Origin: Patescibacteria group bacterium
Lineage (GTDB): Bacteria > Patescibacteriota > Patescibacteriia > 2-12-FULL-60-25
NCBI GenBank assembly: GCA_029210915.1
Contig: JARGGJ010000005.1
Span: 1-64,000, forward strand
Length of the DNA stretch: 64,000 bases
Direction of reading: 5' to 3'
Shown: positions 25,667-31,158 of the stretch, piece by piece
How positions within the stretch are numbered: position 1 is the first letter of the stretch
Layout of the letters: each line of letters begins with the position of its first letter
Program-made: the position numbers and the translations under genes
Notes under the pieces: model-generated
Database searches by the model: none
What the model saw: the letters and a program-made list of their open reading frames with translations, nothing else
What the model was told of the DNA's origin: nothing

Positions 25667-26332
25667 GATTTTGACGGCCTTATGTTGGCCCGAAAGATGT
25701 GAACGGTTTTTTTCGAGTTTTGCGGCCAGGTCATGCTTACCGCGTTTTTTGAATTCCGCGATGAGCGCGCGTTGCAAAGCATCGCGTTTGCGCTTCATAA
25801 CAGAAGGGTCGCTTGGCGAATAGTTTTTTGGGTTCATGCTGAATAGTACCAAGAGCAGTACTTTTCGGAGCATTTCCTCGTCCTCTATTTGCTCATCGAG
25901 TATGAACAAAGCTTCCGCGGCTTCGAGGATATGAATGTGCACCTTGTCTACGCGAGGCCAGTGCTTGATTCCAAGCAGGGTTTGCAGTGTTTCAATGATT
26001 ACTCGACGGCGTTCATTTACCGATGGGCTGCTTGCCTCTTTTTCGGTTAGCGAGGGTTCGGATGATTCGCCAACTGATGCAAACATGGAATCTGATATGT
26101 AAGGAGCGGGGCGTTCGCTGATAACCACGCCATCCAATGTTGGGGGTTCGACCCGCATACTTCCGATTGAGTCGATCGCCCTATCAATCTCCGAATCGAA
26201 TGTGGTTTGTCTATCGTTATCCGGATCCTTTGGGTTGGATTCAGGTTCGATTTCGATGGTTGGTGATGATCCGGCTCGTTCGAATTGGGTTTGGGCGGCG
26301 TCGAAAATTGCGGTATCCGACGCCTTTAGCCT
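25664..26332 (-). CDS. downstream half of a probable frameshift pair, unknown function
   Basis: An open frame of 222 sense codons, in the -1 frame relative to the gene ending at 26326. It has no ATG, GTG or TTG for its first 58 codons; the first ATG is at 26158 and lacks a well-spaced SD. The pre-ATG part looks coded (Asp/Glu/Pro/Thr-rich, no stops). The segment after 26158 begins with a Ser/Pro-rich stretch, then holds a helical domain (residues ~50-130 from that ATG) and a basic C-terminus. I infer it is made as a -1 frameshift extension of the upstream protein, giving ~526 residues. A separate 164-residue protein from 26158, or an indel in the A7 run, are the alternatives. Confidence 0.7.
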   Translation of the reverse strand, partial: RLKASDTAIFDAAQTQFERAGSSPTIEIEPESNPKDPDNDRQTTFDSEIDRAIDSIGSMRVEPPTLDGVVISERPAPYISDSMFASVGESSEPSLTEKEASSPSVNERRRVIIETLQTLLGIKHWPRVDKVHIHILEAAEALFILDEQIEDEEMLRKVLLLVLFSMNPKNYSPSDPSVMKRKRDALQRALIAEFKKRGKHDLAAKLEKNRSHLSGQHKAVKI

Positions 26333-26338
26333 TTTTTT
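26297..26338 (-). promoter_or_regulatory. candidate programmed -1 frameshift signal
   Basis: On the minus strand: A AAA AAA (26338-26332) in zero-frame codons TCA AAA AAA, then seven bases GGCTAAA containing the zero-frame stop, then GGCGTCG pairing perfectly with CGACGCC across a 14-base loop. Slippery heptamer, 5-9 base spacer and stem-loop is the classic -1 layout. GAAGAAGG lies about six bases upstream of the run and could act like the stimulatory SD of dnaX. Confidence 0.65.
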
Positions 26339-27243
26339 GAATCGCCTTCTTCATCATCATCATCATCAGTGGGTGTTATTTGATCCGGCAACTCCTCGAG
26401 CTCTTCATCGCCCATCTGGATTTCGGGGACGGCTTCGCCCGAAGCCGTTTCCAAACCCATTTTTTCGCCGGCAGTTTGCAGGATTGGAACCAGATCCGTC
26501 AGATCCAGGCTATCTACCAGTACCTTAAGAGTAACTATCTCGAGTTCTTGCTTTGCGGTAAACGCACGACTGGTGGATTCGCTCTCTTGAGTTAGGCGAG
26601 CCTTGTCTACGGCCACTCTTTTATCCAGGGGGATGCGTTTTTGCCAGGTTTCACCATCGATCGCGGTTCGCACATCGTAATGAGTGAGAATCGGTTTCAG
26701 TGCACCGCGATCTTGCAAGAATACATCCAAAAGAAACGCAAAAAAATCTTTTTCTCTGGGCGTATTCTCTACGATGATACGGCTGAGGGATTCATTCATG
26801 AAGTGTTTCCAAAAAGAGGAAACATCCATGTAAACAACCAGCTCATTCGCATTGAATGCACACTCGAATTCAGATAAATCGATATCTCCATCATCAATGG
26901 CAGAGTCGATTAGGCTGGATTGAAACTCAGCGTCTTTGCCTCGCGCTGTTTTGGGGCGCAAACCTGTGAGTTCGGTTGTGATTCGTTGACGGATATCAGG
27001 GCGTGTTTTGAAAGCATTCATGCGCACCGAGGCGGGAAAGGCTTTGCGCAGTTCAGAAAGTGTTAGCCATCCCAGGCCGCCATTGTTCTCATCGGTATAA
27101 GCCTCGAGTAACAATTCATTTTGTTTGACAAGGAATTGCACCATAGCTTGCCGAGGAGCGGACTTTGCTAAGAACGCTTCCGCCTCTTTGGCAAGAACGT
27201 CATCAGAAGCATCCGGGTTATTGTGAACGAGCGGTTCGGTCAT
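26326..27243 (-). CDS. uncharacterised 305-residue protein with acidic tail, upstream half of frameshift pair
   Basis: No family was recognised. The N-terminal ~75 residues are helical, a central part (~105-190) mixes hydrophobic strands and helices (LVVYMDVSSFWKHFM; FFAFLLDVFLQDRG), and residues ~225-270 form a long helix. The last ~40 residues are strongly acidic with an Asp run and end in DSKKG. No signal peptide, so probably cytoplasmic. The start is preceded by GGAGG. The stop falls inside the spacer of the frameshift signal described at 26297-26338. It lies upstream of nothing else on this strand and has higher GC than the flanking transport genes. Confidence 0.75.
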   Translation of the reverse strand: MTEPLVHNNPDASDDVLAKEAEAFLAKSAPRQAMVQFLVKQNELLLEAYTDENNGGLGWLTLSELRKAFPASVRMNAFKTRPDIRQRITTELTGLRPKTARGKDAEFQSSLIDSAIDDGDIDLSEFECAFNANELVVYMDVSSFWKHFMNESLSRIIVENTPREKDFFAFLLDVFLQDRGALKPILTHYDVRTAIDGETWQKRIPLDKRVAVDKARLTQESESTSRAFTAKQELEIVTLKVLVDSLDLTDLVPILQTAGEKMGLETASGEAVPEIQMGDEELEELPDQITPTDDDDDEEGDSKKG

Positions 27244-27405: not shown

Positions 27406-29559
27406 TTAGTTGGATTTGTTCCAGTGCCCTGAGAGGACTTCGACGTGCTGGTCGACAGCCCAGTCACGCGATCCACCCAATTCTTGGGTTGTGGCGATAT
27501 GTGGGATATTGGATTCGTCTGACCAAACGAAGGTGCCGAGACTGTGTCCGCAAGGACCACTGGAATTACAACCGCTGTAGTCACCAACATTGAAGAGGTG
27601 GGGAGAGGCTGCGTAAGGAGCGTAGGAATCATTGTTCAACAGATACCCCGTGATGGGATTTGCCACAGCGGGGAAATCTGCTTTGAACTGTACGCTCACA
27701 TTGTTGCCGGAGCCGATGTAGCCAACCGTTGCACGGAGGCTGTAAAGGTTGCCGTTGTTGGAAACCACATCTTCTCCGACAAAGCTTACCGCTATGGTGG
27801 CGGCGTCGTTGATGGTGCCAGCGGAGAGGTCGGCGCCGCTTACTGAATCGGTGATCCAGTATTCGTTCGCCGGCAATTGGACGCTTCCGCGGTAAAGACG
27901 GAAGTGGCTCAAGCTCACATTGGCACTCTTTGTCACAATGAAGGTGGTTTGCTTCATCGCGATCGCGCCATTGCTATCTGCGCCGACCTGCCAACGTGCG
28001 ATTTCTTGCTCGCCGGACGACAGCACGGTGCTCGTAAGCTGCTGCGGGGTCACAATGGGCTTGCTCTTGCGGACTGTCATGAAGCTCGGTTGAGCCGCAC
28101 CTTCGTCCGCAAAGATCTTTTCGCCGGTCGTAAGTCCGCGGGCATGCACGAAGAGTTTGCCGGCGTAATCCGCAGTGTTGCAGTAGGCGTCGGTTCCGTA
28201 GAAAGGAACGCTTTCGCCTATGCGCAACGAAACGGATTTGCCGGAGCGAGCGTAATGACTCCACTCGCCGCCCGCTTGCGTTGATGACACAACCGGAGCG
28301 AATTTTGCCCAAAGCTCGATCGATTGGCAATCACCCTTGGCGATTGTGATGCCGTTGCTGAGGTCAACATCAACGAGTCCGTAAGGATCATTGTTGTTGA
28401 ATTGGGCCGTGCCAAGAATGCTACCTTCATGCGCTACACCAACGAGAGAAAAACTCTCGGCAGACATGCCACCGTTTTGCGTGCGCCACTGAACGCCGAT
28501 CTGGGAAAGCTTCACGTCTTCGTTACCTTGCGCGCAGGCTTGGTAACGAGCCATGGGCACCCATACATCCTTACCGCCGATGACGATCGTTGAAGATGGG
28601 TGTCCATCTTCGGTGACTGTGAGGCTGCTTTGCGCGTGATAAGGCGGACAGTCGGGAGCAACGATTGTGATTTCTCCACCAACATGATTGGTGAGCGAGA
28701 TTTCATCGTGCTTCAGCTCCGTGCCGTCTGCGAGTGTGACCAAGCCGTAAGGTTCCAGGGGGAAGTTGAGGTACACTTGGTATTCGTGTCCGTACAAATC
28801 CCCTGGAGTTACTTCTTGGTCCTCAATGCTAGCTACGAAAGCGATGTGTTTGCACTCGCCGGCGTTCATGATGAGGCTATCCGTGAAATGGATGTTTTGA
28901 GCTCCGGTGAGTCCGTTGGAATCTAGTTCCATTGGGCCCATGAGGGTATTCCCAAAATCAAGATCGATGAGCTTGATGTTGGTGAAATAGGGAGTTCCGT
29001 CGTTGGCAACGACATCGCCTCCCATTTGCCCCAAGAGCTTGTAATCCAATTCCTGCACTTCGATGTTTTGCGAGGTGCAGAATGTGGCACTATGGAAGAT
29101 TTGTCCCACAGTGCCGGCGGCCACTGTTTGGTTTTCTGGTATGTCGCCTTGGATGGTGAGGATGGGATCAGTGTTGGCATCGTTGCCAGCGTCAGTTCCG
29201 CTATCTTCGCCGGCTTCAACTTCAGCATCAGCATCCGCATCAGGAGTAACCTGAGCATCGGTGTCAGCTTCAGCTTGCGCATCCACTTCCGCATCCCCCT
29301 CGGGAGAAGCTTCGGGTGTTGTGCCAGCGTCGGGTTCGGGTTTTTGGCAACGGCAAGTGTCGTATGTTTCGAAATCATTGCAGACTTGATAGCCTGTGAT
29401 TCCACCCGGGCAAACACAGCCGAAACTTTGGCCGGGAATGCATTTTTCGTTTGACTCTACGTACGTGTTGTACGTGTCGCCTTCGCCTCCGCAACCGATA
29501 GCGAAAATTCCAAACAATACCAAGATACAAGAAACAAACATTTGCGTTGAACGGTTCAT
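27406..29559 (-). CDS. large secreted lipoprotein with Asp/Ala-rich linker
   Basis: A 717-residue lipoprotein. The signal peptide ends in the lipobox FAIGC (Cys23). A Cys-rich segment follows (PGQSFGCVCPGG, CNDFETYDTCRC; residues ~38-71). Then a ~65-residue linker is made of Asp, Ala, Glu, Thr and Val (PDAGTTPEASPEGD and so on). The remaining ~580 residues look like several beta-sandwich domains rich in Ser, Thr, Gly and Asn. AAAGGAG lies before the ATG. It is the last gene of a five-gene operon that begins at 32271. A surface adhesin or structural role is possible; function is unknown. Codon use and GC are higher than in neighbouring regions. Confidence 0.85.
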   Translation of the reverse strand: MNRSTQMFVSCILVLFGIFAIGCGGEGDTYNTYVESNEKCIPGQSFGCVCPGGITGYQVCNDFETYDTCRCQKPEPDAGTTPEASPEGDAEVDAQAEADTDAQVTPDADADAEVEAGEDSGTDAGNDANTDPILTIQGDIPENQTVAAGTVGQIFHSATFCTSQNIEVQELDYKLLGQMGGDVVANDGTPYFTNIKLIDLDFGNTLMGPMELDSNGLTGAQNIHFTDSLIMNAGECKHIAFVASIEDQEVTPGDLYGHEYQVYLNFPLEPYGLVTLADGTELKHDEISLTNHVGGEITIVAPDCPPYHAQSSLTVTEDGHPSSTIVIGGKDVWVPMARYQACAQGNEDVKLSQIGVQWRTQNGGMSAESFSLVGVAHEGSILGTAQFNNNDPYGLVDVDLSNGITIAKGDCQSIELWAKFAPVVSSTQAGGEWSHYARSGKSVSLRIGESVPFYGTDAYCNTADYAGKLFVHARGLTTGEKIFADEGAAQPSFMTVRKSKPIVTPQQLTSTVLSSGEQEIARWQVGADSNGAIAMKQTTFIVTKSANVSLSHFRLYRGSVQLPANEYWITDSVSGADLSAGTINDAATIAVSFVGEDVVSNNGNLYSLRATVGYIGSGNNVSVQFKADFPAVANPITGYLLNNDSYAPYAASPHLFNVGDYSGCNSSGPCGHSLGTFVWSDESNIPHIATTQELGGSRDWAVDQHVEVLSGHWNKSN

Positions 29560-29589
29560 GTTTTCTCCTTTTGTCTAAAAAGCGAGGGA

Positions 29590-29662
29590 TGATTCCCTTC
29601 TTACTAATCGAACATCGAATTTCGAACGACGAACTACGATTCGATTTGTAGGAAGGGAAGCC
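29590..29662. repeat. operon-internal hairpin repeat, copy 1
   Basis: GATTCCCTTCTT and AGGAAGGGAAGCC form the outer stem; the loop holds TCGAACATCGAATTTCGAA words. A second copy lies at 31838-31901, also between operon genes. Confidence 0.7.
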
Positions 29663-29697
29663 AAGTCGCGGAGTGCGAGTTGGCTGGGAGGAAAGTG

Positions 29698-31158
29698 CTA
29701 TTGGCAGGAGAGAAAAGCGACTTTGCCGTGGTAGGTATCGTCGCTCATTTTTTCTGTGTAGGTGACCGCCAGCTTACCGGGGCGAAGGACGGCAACTTGC
29801 GAGGTTGTCATGTAGTACAAATCAATATCCTCTACGACGTTGAAAGAATAGACTTCTTCCATTTGGTTGTCGCGGAAACTGATATTGATACTACGGTCCG
29901 TTTCAACGTACAGTCCGCCGGCTTTGCTCACGACCCAACCATTGGCGTAAGGCCGGATGTGGCCCCACGGAGCTTCAACCGTGTAGAGCTCGTCACCGAG
30001 CTGGTTGTAGGTTGTGAGGTAGCGGCTGCTGGTGCTGTTACCTTCGTTGTCGTACGTGAACTTTGTCCAGTCGGCAACGAAGTTGTAATTTTGGTTGTAA
30101 AGTCCGATTGTTCCACCACTGATGTTGCCGGTAGCCACGAACTTCATGAGCTCTAGTGATTCCGTATGTCCATTTGGGAACAGGAACCCTAGTGCAGTGG
30201 TTTGCTCGTAGGCGTCGTTGCTGGGCGTGGTGAGCAAGTAGCCCACGGTACCGTTGATATCGACTCCATTCGCGATGCTCAACCCGCCGTAGGCGTTGAT
30301 GCCCGTTTGGGCGTAGATCACGAATCGATCAGCAAGCGCGCCAGTGGTGTTGAGATGCTGGAGCGACACGACGAATGTTCCGTTTTCGGCTTCTTGCCGA
30401 ACGAGCCATGCACCACCCACGTGTGATGGGACAATGTCGAACGCCCTTGGTTCCGACATTCCGTAGAGGTGGGTCAACTCTTGATCCATGATCTTTACGG
30501 CGAATCCGAAACTGTTTTGGTAGGCAACGATGTACCCACCATATGAGCGCGGGCGAACGACATGTCCCAGACCGCCGTTGCTATCCGGGATGACGTAAGA
30601 AAGTAGTTCTTCGCCATCCTCGCTCATCTTGAAAAGACGGATGTTGTTGCTACCTTTGCTTACGAAACTTACTCCGTAGCTATGGCCATCGGATGTGATT
30701 TGGGTGAAATTTGGGAATTCTTCACCGAAATCAGCAATCACATCGACGTTACAGCTTTGCGGGAGCGTGTTTGCATCCGCTTCCGCATCCGCCTCCGCAT
30801 CAGGTGTAACCTGAGCGTCTGCTTCAACTTCCGCATCCGGTTCAACCGCCGAGTCTTCCTCGGGGGAAGCTTCGGGTGTGGTGCCGGCGTCGGGTTGAGA
30901 TGATGGAGGGCAAATGGCGGCGCTGTATGACATTCCGTCTTCGGCGCAAACCACACTCACCATCTTGCCATCCTCGCAGACATAGTCGCGGGGTTCGCCG
31001 GGGACGCAGGTTGCGCCCGGGGGCAAATCGGCAGATAGAGCAGGCGCTCCGTAAGCGGTTGCGCCTTCGCCGCCACAACCGCCCATGAAGAGCGATCCGA
31101 TAGCAATGACTGACCAGATAAACAGGCAAGAAATTCCGAACAAAAATGATTTCAACAT
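29698..31158 (-). CDS. secreted lipoprotein with Asp/Ala-rich linker, probable beta-propeller
   Basis: A 486-residue lipoprotein. The signal peptide ends in FMGGC (Cys28). A short Cys-containing part is followed by the linker PDAGTTPEASPEED and Asp/Ala/Glu repeats, closely matching the linker of the next gene. Residues ~135-486 hold repeated strand patterns with aromatic-Gly-Asp motifs (GLGHVVRPRSYGG, GGAWLVRQEAEN), suggesting a propeller-like fold. An AGGA site precedes the ATG. It lies mid-operon between a 113-residue lipoprotein and the 717-residue one. Function is unknown; surface binding is a reasonable guess. Confidence 0.82.
   Translation of the reverse strand: MLKSFLFGISCLFIWSVIAIGSLFMGGCGGEGATAYGAPALSADLPPGATCVPGEPRDYVCEDGKMVSVVCAEDGMSYSAAICPPSSQPDAGTTPEASPEEDSAVEPDAEVEADAQVTPDAEADAEADANTLPQSCNVDVIADFGEEFPNFTQITSDGHSYGVSFVSKGSNNIRLFKMSEDGEELLSYVIPDSNGGLGHVVRPRSYGGYIVAYQNSFGFAVKIMDQELTHLYGMSEPRAFDIVPSHVGGAWLVRQEAENGTFVVSLQHLNTTGALADRFVIYAQTGINAYGGLSIANGVDINGTVGYLLTTPSNDAYEQTTALGFLFPNGHTESLELMKFVATGNISGGTIGLYNQNYNFVADWTKFTYDNEGNSTSSRYLTTYNQLGDELYTVEAPWGHIRPYANGWVVSKAGGLYVETDRSINISFRDNQMEEVYSFNVVEDIDLYYMTTSQVAVLRPGKLAVTYTEKMSDDTYHGKVAFLSCQ

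Follow-up and report, generated by a model that had tools for sequence, protein, structure and literature searches.

On the minus strand of the 64,000-nucleotide stretch of DNA analysed here (the window), a reading frame encoding 305 residues ends one codon after a run of seven A, and a second frame, shifted by -1, stays open from that run for 222 codons. This arrangement raises the question of whether the locus holds two genes, one gene interrupted by mutation or by sequencing error, or one gene that is read in two ways. Judging from sequence comparisons, we consider it very probable that this is one gene with one start, from which two proteins would be made by programmed -1 ribosomal frameshifting. 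The anatomy of the site, its conservation in 14 genes, the constraint on the protein encoded in the -1 frame, the existence of fused homologues, and RNA structure restricted to the site all support this reading.

The proposed slip site and its two reading frames

All features of the gene lie on the minus strand, where the slip region reads, 5' to 3', GAT TCA AAA AAA GGC TAA AGGCGTCG-(14 nt)-CGACGCC. The slippery heptamer A_AAA_AAA (A7; 26338-26332) consists of the last base of TCA and both AAA codons, and its zero-frame register, X_XXY_YYZ, is the right one for -1 slippage. One codon past the heptamer (GGC TAA) is the zero-frame stop, TAA (26328-26326), which falls within the 7-nt spacer GGCTAAA (26331-26325). 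The spacer separates the heptamer from a putative 3' stimulatory hairpin (26324-26297) that starts 7 nt after the heptamer and whose arms, GGCGTCG (26324-26318) and CGACGCC (26303-26297), form a perfect, GC-rich stem of 7 bp around a 14-nt loop. A preliminary description of the locus had listed the A_AAA_AAA heptamer, a stop inside a 7-base spacer, the 7-bp stem and its 14-base loop, and it was correct to the base. On the other side, 5 nt before the heptamer, a purine-rich and weakly Shine-Dalgarno (SD)-like stretch, AAGAAGGC (26344-26351), is a possible upstream stimulator.

The shared start is the ATG at 27243-27241, served by a GGAGG SD at 27255-27251 with a pairing energy of -10.6 kcal/mol. 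The zero-frame ORF (27243-26326) encodes the short product, 305 aa made up of a helical N-terminal domain and an acidic tail ending in DSKKG. The -1 frame (26332-25664) comprises 222 codons from AGG at 26332 and closes with a stop at 25666-25664; the long product would therefore consist of residues 1-304 plus these 222 codons, or 526 aa. There is no ATG, GTG or TTG within the first 58 codons of the -1 frame, the earliest being the ATG at 26158, where SD pairing is poor (-1.1 kcal/mol). These values agree with the preliminary description, which had put the open -1 frame at 222 codons with the first 58 free of starts, had noted that the ATG at 26158 lacks a good SD, and had predicted products of 305 and about 526 residues from one start (304 + 222 = 526).

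A hairpin resembling an intrinsic terminator (25661-25644) lies directly 3' of the C half, and it is on this position that we call it, chance yielding similar numbers in the scan. Another terminator-like hairpin (27373-27349) closes the gene upstream of the frameshift gene, and the terminator scan found none between the N and C halves. The gene is present as a single copy in its own genome (G000, 1.46 Mb). Upstream of it, at 27406-31158 on the minus strand, two large lipoproteins are predicted one after the other, with Asp/Ala-rich linkers (TPDADADAEVEAG...); neither had a match in Pfam, and relatives lie near the same frameshift gene in G007, G001 and G003.

We propose that ribosomes initiate at 27243 and translate the helical N domain, and that the majority would then reach the TAA at 26328 and release the 305-aa short protein. 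A fraction would pause on A_AAA_AAA because the hairpin begins 7 nt downstream, both ribosomal tRNAs would re-pair one base back, and decoding would proceed in the -1 frame for 222 codons to give a 526-aa protein that carries the linker and a helical C-terminal domain. The purpose of such an arrangement would be a fixed ratio of short to long protein. Translation across the junction should produce the peptide ...KKRLKASDTAIFDAAQTQFER in the window, and ...PKS[VIL]EA... in the C_CCA_AAA genes described below. We infer the slipping on the ribosome, its efficiency and the importance of both products. In E. coli, A_AAA_AAA and C_CCA_AAA both belong to the heptamers for which shifting exceeds 0.10% in the absence of stimulators, V_VV.A_AA.R being one of the most efficient classes (PMC4066793); the A7 cassette of a magnesium chelatase gene gives a 10% shift (PMC3711429).

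Conservation of the heptamer and of the RNA structure

Relatives of the N half were detectable only within its own taxonomic family: of 381 genomes drawn from the class, 20 matched the N-half profile, and every one belongs to family f1. Among the 41 genomes compared from that family (Ca. Uhrbacteria), 26 gave a match. We called homologues slip-type if the 3'-end table gave an in-register heptamer, a zero-frame stop one to a few codons on, and an open -1 frame. This layout was found in 14 homologues from 13 of the 41 family genomes, the window included, and the -1 frame is open past the stop in all 14 (13 are complete; in G018 the contig ends after 20 codons). C_CCA_AAA is the heptamer in 13 of these genes; A_AAA_AAA occurs only in the window copy, at the same position, where it differs from the heptamer of the nearest relative, G006, at three bases and still keeps the X_XXY_YYZ rule. 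The usual context among the relatives is NNC CCA AAA GCN TAG/TGA AGGCG[TC], to be compared with A_AAA_AAA GGC TAA AGGCGTC in the window; the stop is placed a few codons later in G003 and in one of the two G009 copies. The preliminary description had counted homologues of the same layout as support for frameshifting, and here are 13 further genes with the heptamer, a nearby stop, a stem at about 7 nt and an open -1 frame. In G009, three family members stand in tandem (L081, G009:C17), two slip-type and one N-only, and thus the frameshift gene has been duplicated locally.

Of the 41 family genomes, 10 contain the pattern CCCAAAAGNNTRRNGGCG, each a single time and always in the frameshift gene family. 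Among 84,980 genomes there were nine exact matches to CCCAAAAGCNTAGAGGCGNC, for which the chance expectation is a few matches in 257 billion bases, and five of the nine are in the frameshift gene family. The other four (in Variovorax, Clostridia, Alphaproteobacteria and Halomonas) were rejected, as none resembles a coding gene that ends at the motif, the zero-frame stretches being 5 to 96 codons long. Two further candidates outside the family, each with a heptamer near a stop and a long -1 frame, were also excluded: L082 is an antisense ORF, and L098 is a normal pair of overlapping genes that has its own ATG.

To score the hairpin, we took, for each of the 13 genes with enough sequence, the best perfect stem that begins 5-10 nt past the heptamer and compared it with dinucleotide shuffles (Fisher p = 2e-6). 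The distance to the 3' arm differs from gene to gene, and for that reason shuffles were run per gene rather than base pairs being counted on a single alignment. Most 5' arms read GGCGYC, and the partner arm, 14 to about 54 nt away, pairs with the 5' arm of its own gene, as in GGCGTCG/CGACGCC, GGCGTCCT/AGGACGCC, GGCGCC/GGCGCC, GCGGAG/CTCCGC and GCGTCC/GGACGC. The structure is confined to the site: the mean z of the 80-nt folding energy after the heptamer is -3.4, whereas nine other offsets in these genes give means between -0.6 and +0.6. In the window, structure was sought 5-9 nt downstream of the heptamer, and the 7-bp stem is there at 7 nt; shuffling gives p = 0.0075 for a perfect stem so placed, and the 86-nt fold has a z of -1.5, with 18 of 200 shuffles equally good. 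The window hairpin is thus beyond chance modestly on the window alone and far beyond it across the homologues. The upstream SD-like stretch is, over 13 genes, stronger than other positions of the ORFs concerned, with a Fisher p of 4e-4 (0.12 for the window alone), a signal that Glu/Gly-rich codons could explain.

The encoded proteins and alternative readings of the locus

AlphaFold2 predicts an all-helical N half (about residues 10-265; pLDDT 85), followed by a disordered acidic tail in which residues 268-305 score under 50. The C half is predicted to begin with a disordered linker of about 100 residues and to continue as a helical domain (about residues 105-215). Searches of Pfam, NCBIfam and PHROGs returned nothing above cut-off for either half, Foldseek against the PDB gave no E value below 0.001 for the model of either half, and the N-half profile found nothing convincing among PDB sequences. 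The best VIA-align hit pairs 58 N-half residues with a CARD domain at Z 4.1, a score at noise level for helical models. Such a lack of fold match need not mean that the fold is new. Several long, fused and N-only homologues (among them L094, L085, L089, L097 and L093) carry at the C-terminus a proline-rich tail (PPPLPxxK; for example PPPLPKKP and PPPLPNKSK) that resembles a short recognition motif and is absent from the window copy.

The -1 frame is constrained as protein. A profile built from nine C halves, the window left out, recovered the window C half with an E value of 1e-17, and the same profile matched the single-frame homologues G025 (residues 269-524, E 2e-18) and G040 (residues 386-469, E 3e-12) and, weakly, G019 (E 0.028). 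Halves joined in one frame, which the preliminary description had also held to favour a shared product, are therefore present in relatives. G028 and G012 are long single frames as well (G012 is cut by a contig end), with the C-domain matches lying in G025, G040 and weakly G019. In the closest pair, G037/G021, the -1 frame has a pN of 0.35 and a pS of 0.63, and its pN/pS is given as 0.54; this is below 1 yet not low, and divergence is high, with synonymous sites near saturation.

These data bear on whether the locus could instead be two separate, translationally coupled genes, with ribosomes stopping at the TAA and restarting downstream to make the C half. A downstream ATG exists in the window (26158), G021 has an ATG 12 nt from the heptamer, that of G003 at +48 has good SD pairing, and in clusters of this kind recoding can occur alongside coupling (PMC3711429). 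However, the -1 frame has no conserved start: its start codons differ in position from gene to gene and mostly lack an SD, whereas pairing energies of -8 to -11 kcal/mol are found at most N starts. A second half that always has its own SD and start, the pattern that the preliminary description had named as contrary to frameshifting, is not seen. The window -1 frame, moreover, already resembles that of G006 upstream of its first ATG (FDSEIDRAIDSIG / EDPEIEKAVDSIA), fused homologues exist, and coupling leaves the conserved X_XXY_YYZ heptamer and the hairpin at fixed spacing unexplained. We consider it very unlikely.

Also very unlikely is the reading in which the window run is truly A8, the gene is continuous and the apparent frameshift stems from an error in the reads or the assembly. 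A runs are error-prone, the window A7 being the sole slip site of the set open to run-length error or to transcriptional slippage, a single added A opens one frame, and fused homologues occupy the same locus. Against this, the slip sites of the relatives are C3A4; they contain no long homopolymer, and therefore the family pattern is not a run-length error. In addition, the fused homologues that have no heptamer also lack the module of stop, AGGCG and hairpin, which the window keeps at its exact spacing.

Transcriptional slippage at the A run, by which mixed mRNAs would yield both products, is very unlikely. The dnaX gene of Thermus thermophilus provides a known case, with a run of nine (PMC5009743), and an A7 run can slip a little. 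The 13 related genes, however, have CCCAAAA, with four A only, published cases cite A runs above 7 (PMC3711429), and a hairpin spaced at 7 nt plays no part in such slippage.

Inactivation by an indel, which would make the gene a pseudogene, we regard as hardly credible: the N half occurs by itself elsewhere in the family, and so the C half may be dispensable, but 14 genes share a frame break at the same motif, with halves intact and a -1 frame pN/pS below 1. Stop-codon readthrough was rejected, since the zero frame past the stop encodes nothing that resembles the C half.

A shared locus, a frame-swapped homologue and known systems

Programmed -1 frameshifting thus remains the best reading. Most genes of the family occupy one syntenic locus common to slip-type, fused and N-only genes. 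A PfkB kinase gene is commonly upstream; downstream is a convergent DUF2207 gene, and past it are a second PfkB kinase, an SBF-family transporter and a 2-hydroxyacid dehydrogenase. In a maximum-likelihood tree, the N halves fall into two deep clades, with slip-type genes in both: one holds 11 slip-type genes, 4 single-frame genes and 1 truncated gene, and the other holds 3 slip-type genes, 1 fused gene and 11 that are N-only or otherwise single. The locus offers a natural series (slip-type, fused, frame-swapped and N-only) in which to follow how programmed frameshifts arise, invert and vanish.

The frame-swapped member is the fused G019 (L100:9230-9360), which reads GAC CCA AAA GCC TGT GAG GCG CC. 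Its heptamer, C_CCA_AAA, is still in register, an 11-pair hairpin follows 8 nt after it, and a -1 slip would meet a TGA two codons on; the local folding-energy z is only -1.5, in a very GC-rich region. As far as its sequence indicates, the frames in G019 would be swapped, with normal decoding giving the long protein and a -1 slip the short one. Because G019 retains both heptamer and hairpin with the frames swapped, selection for both products is suggested. By comparison, the fused genes G025, G028 and G040 have no heptamer near the junction and lack the stop-AGGCG-hairpin module; the short product is therefore either unneeded in those genomes or made otherwise. We tentatively entertain, as a serious possibility, that selection keeps the short and long proteins in a set ratio by whichever decoding route, that the long protein arises by a slip in the majority of genomes with a C domain, and that in G019 a frame change next to the slip site swapped their roles. 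If true, the inversion in G019 would be the one that separates two-ORF from one-ORF dnaX, found within one syntenic locus.

Frameshifting of this type is an established mechanism; what is new, judged by the open-access literature, is the gene family and the lineage. Few families of bacterial non-mobile genes are known to have conserved -1 frameshifting, and the present gene would add a rare example from an ordinary cellular function. The preliminary description had foreseen an unusual cellular use in Patescibacteria, which fits with the single copy, with searches of phages with the C half and of plasmids with the N half that gave no match, and with the open literature, where we found no paper linking frameshifting with Patescibacteria, CPR or Uhrbacteria (subscription papers lay mostly outside the search). 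Gene callers split or truncate frameshift genes, and the protein is therefore probably mis-annotated throughout the lineage.

The layout had also been likened to those of dnaX and of IS elements, and a -1 heptamer with downstream structure is indeed common to E. coli dnaX and IS3/IS911. With E. coli dnaX (gamma/tau, A_AAA_AAG) the gene would share a -1 slip on an A/K heptamer, a downstream hairpin, a purine-rich upstream stretch of possible stimulatory role and a common start of both products. The order of products differs, however: in the window and its 13 relatives the slip would make the long product, whereas G019 has the frame order of dnaX (long by normal decoding, short by slip). Nor is the protein a DnaX clamp loader by any detectable similarity or Pfam or NCBIfam hit, and it is predicted to be all-helical. 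Two-ORF dnaX, magnesium chelatase and DUF111 genes (GeneTack clusters, PMC3711429) are similar in that adjacent chromosomal ORFs are joined by a -1 shift and one-frame fusions occur in relatives; the GeneTack dnaX and magnesium chelatase sites are poly-A runs (PMC3711429), whereas here C_CCA_AAA dominates, in other proteins and another phylum.

Transposases of IS3/IS911 and phage structural genes likewise combine an X_XXA_AAR heptamer with a 3' stimulatory structure, and when the IS911 or IS3 stimulators are present in E. coli, C_CC.A_AA.G and A_AA.A_AA.G rank with the strongest motifs (PMC4066793). In contrast to such elements, the present gene is a single copy at a fixed syntenic chromosomal locus and has no transposase domain (Pfam, NCBIfam, PHROG). 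One phage sequence does carry a similar site: in L078 (4202-5430, minus strand; IMGVR_UViG_2885653944_000002), a phage major head protein (phrog_247, E 6.5e-60) with the end ...DDPKA* terminates at C_CCA_AAA GCG TAA AGGCGCC, and the -1 frame runs 66 more codons with a weak HeH/LEM-domain match. This is likely a second, unrelated use of the same slip site.
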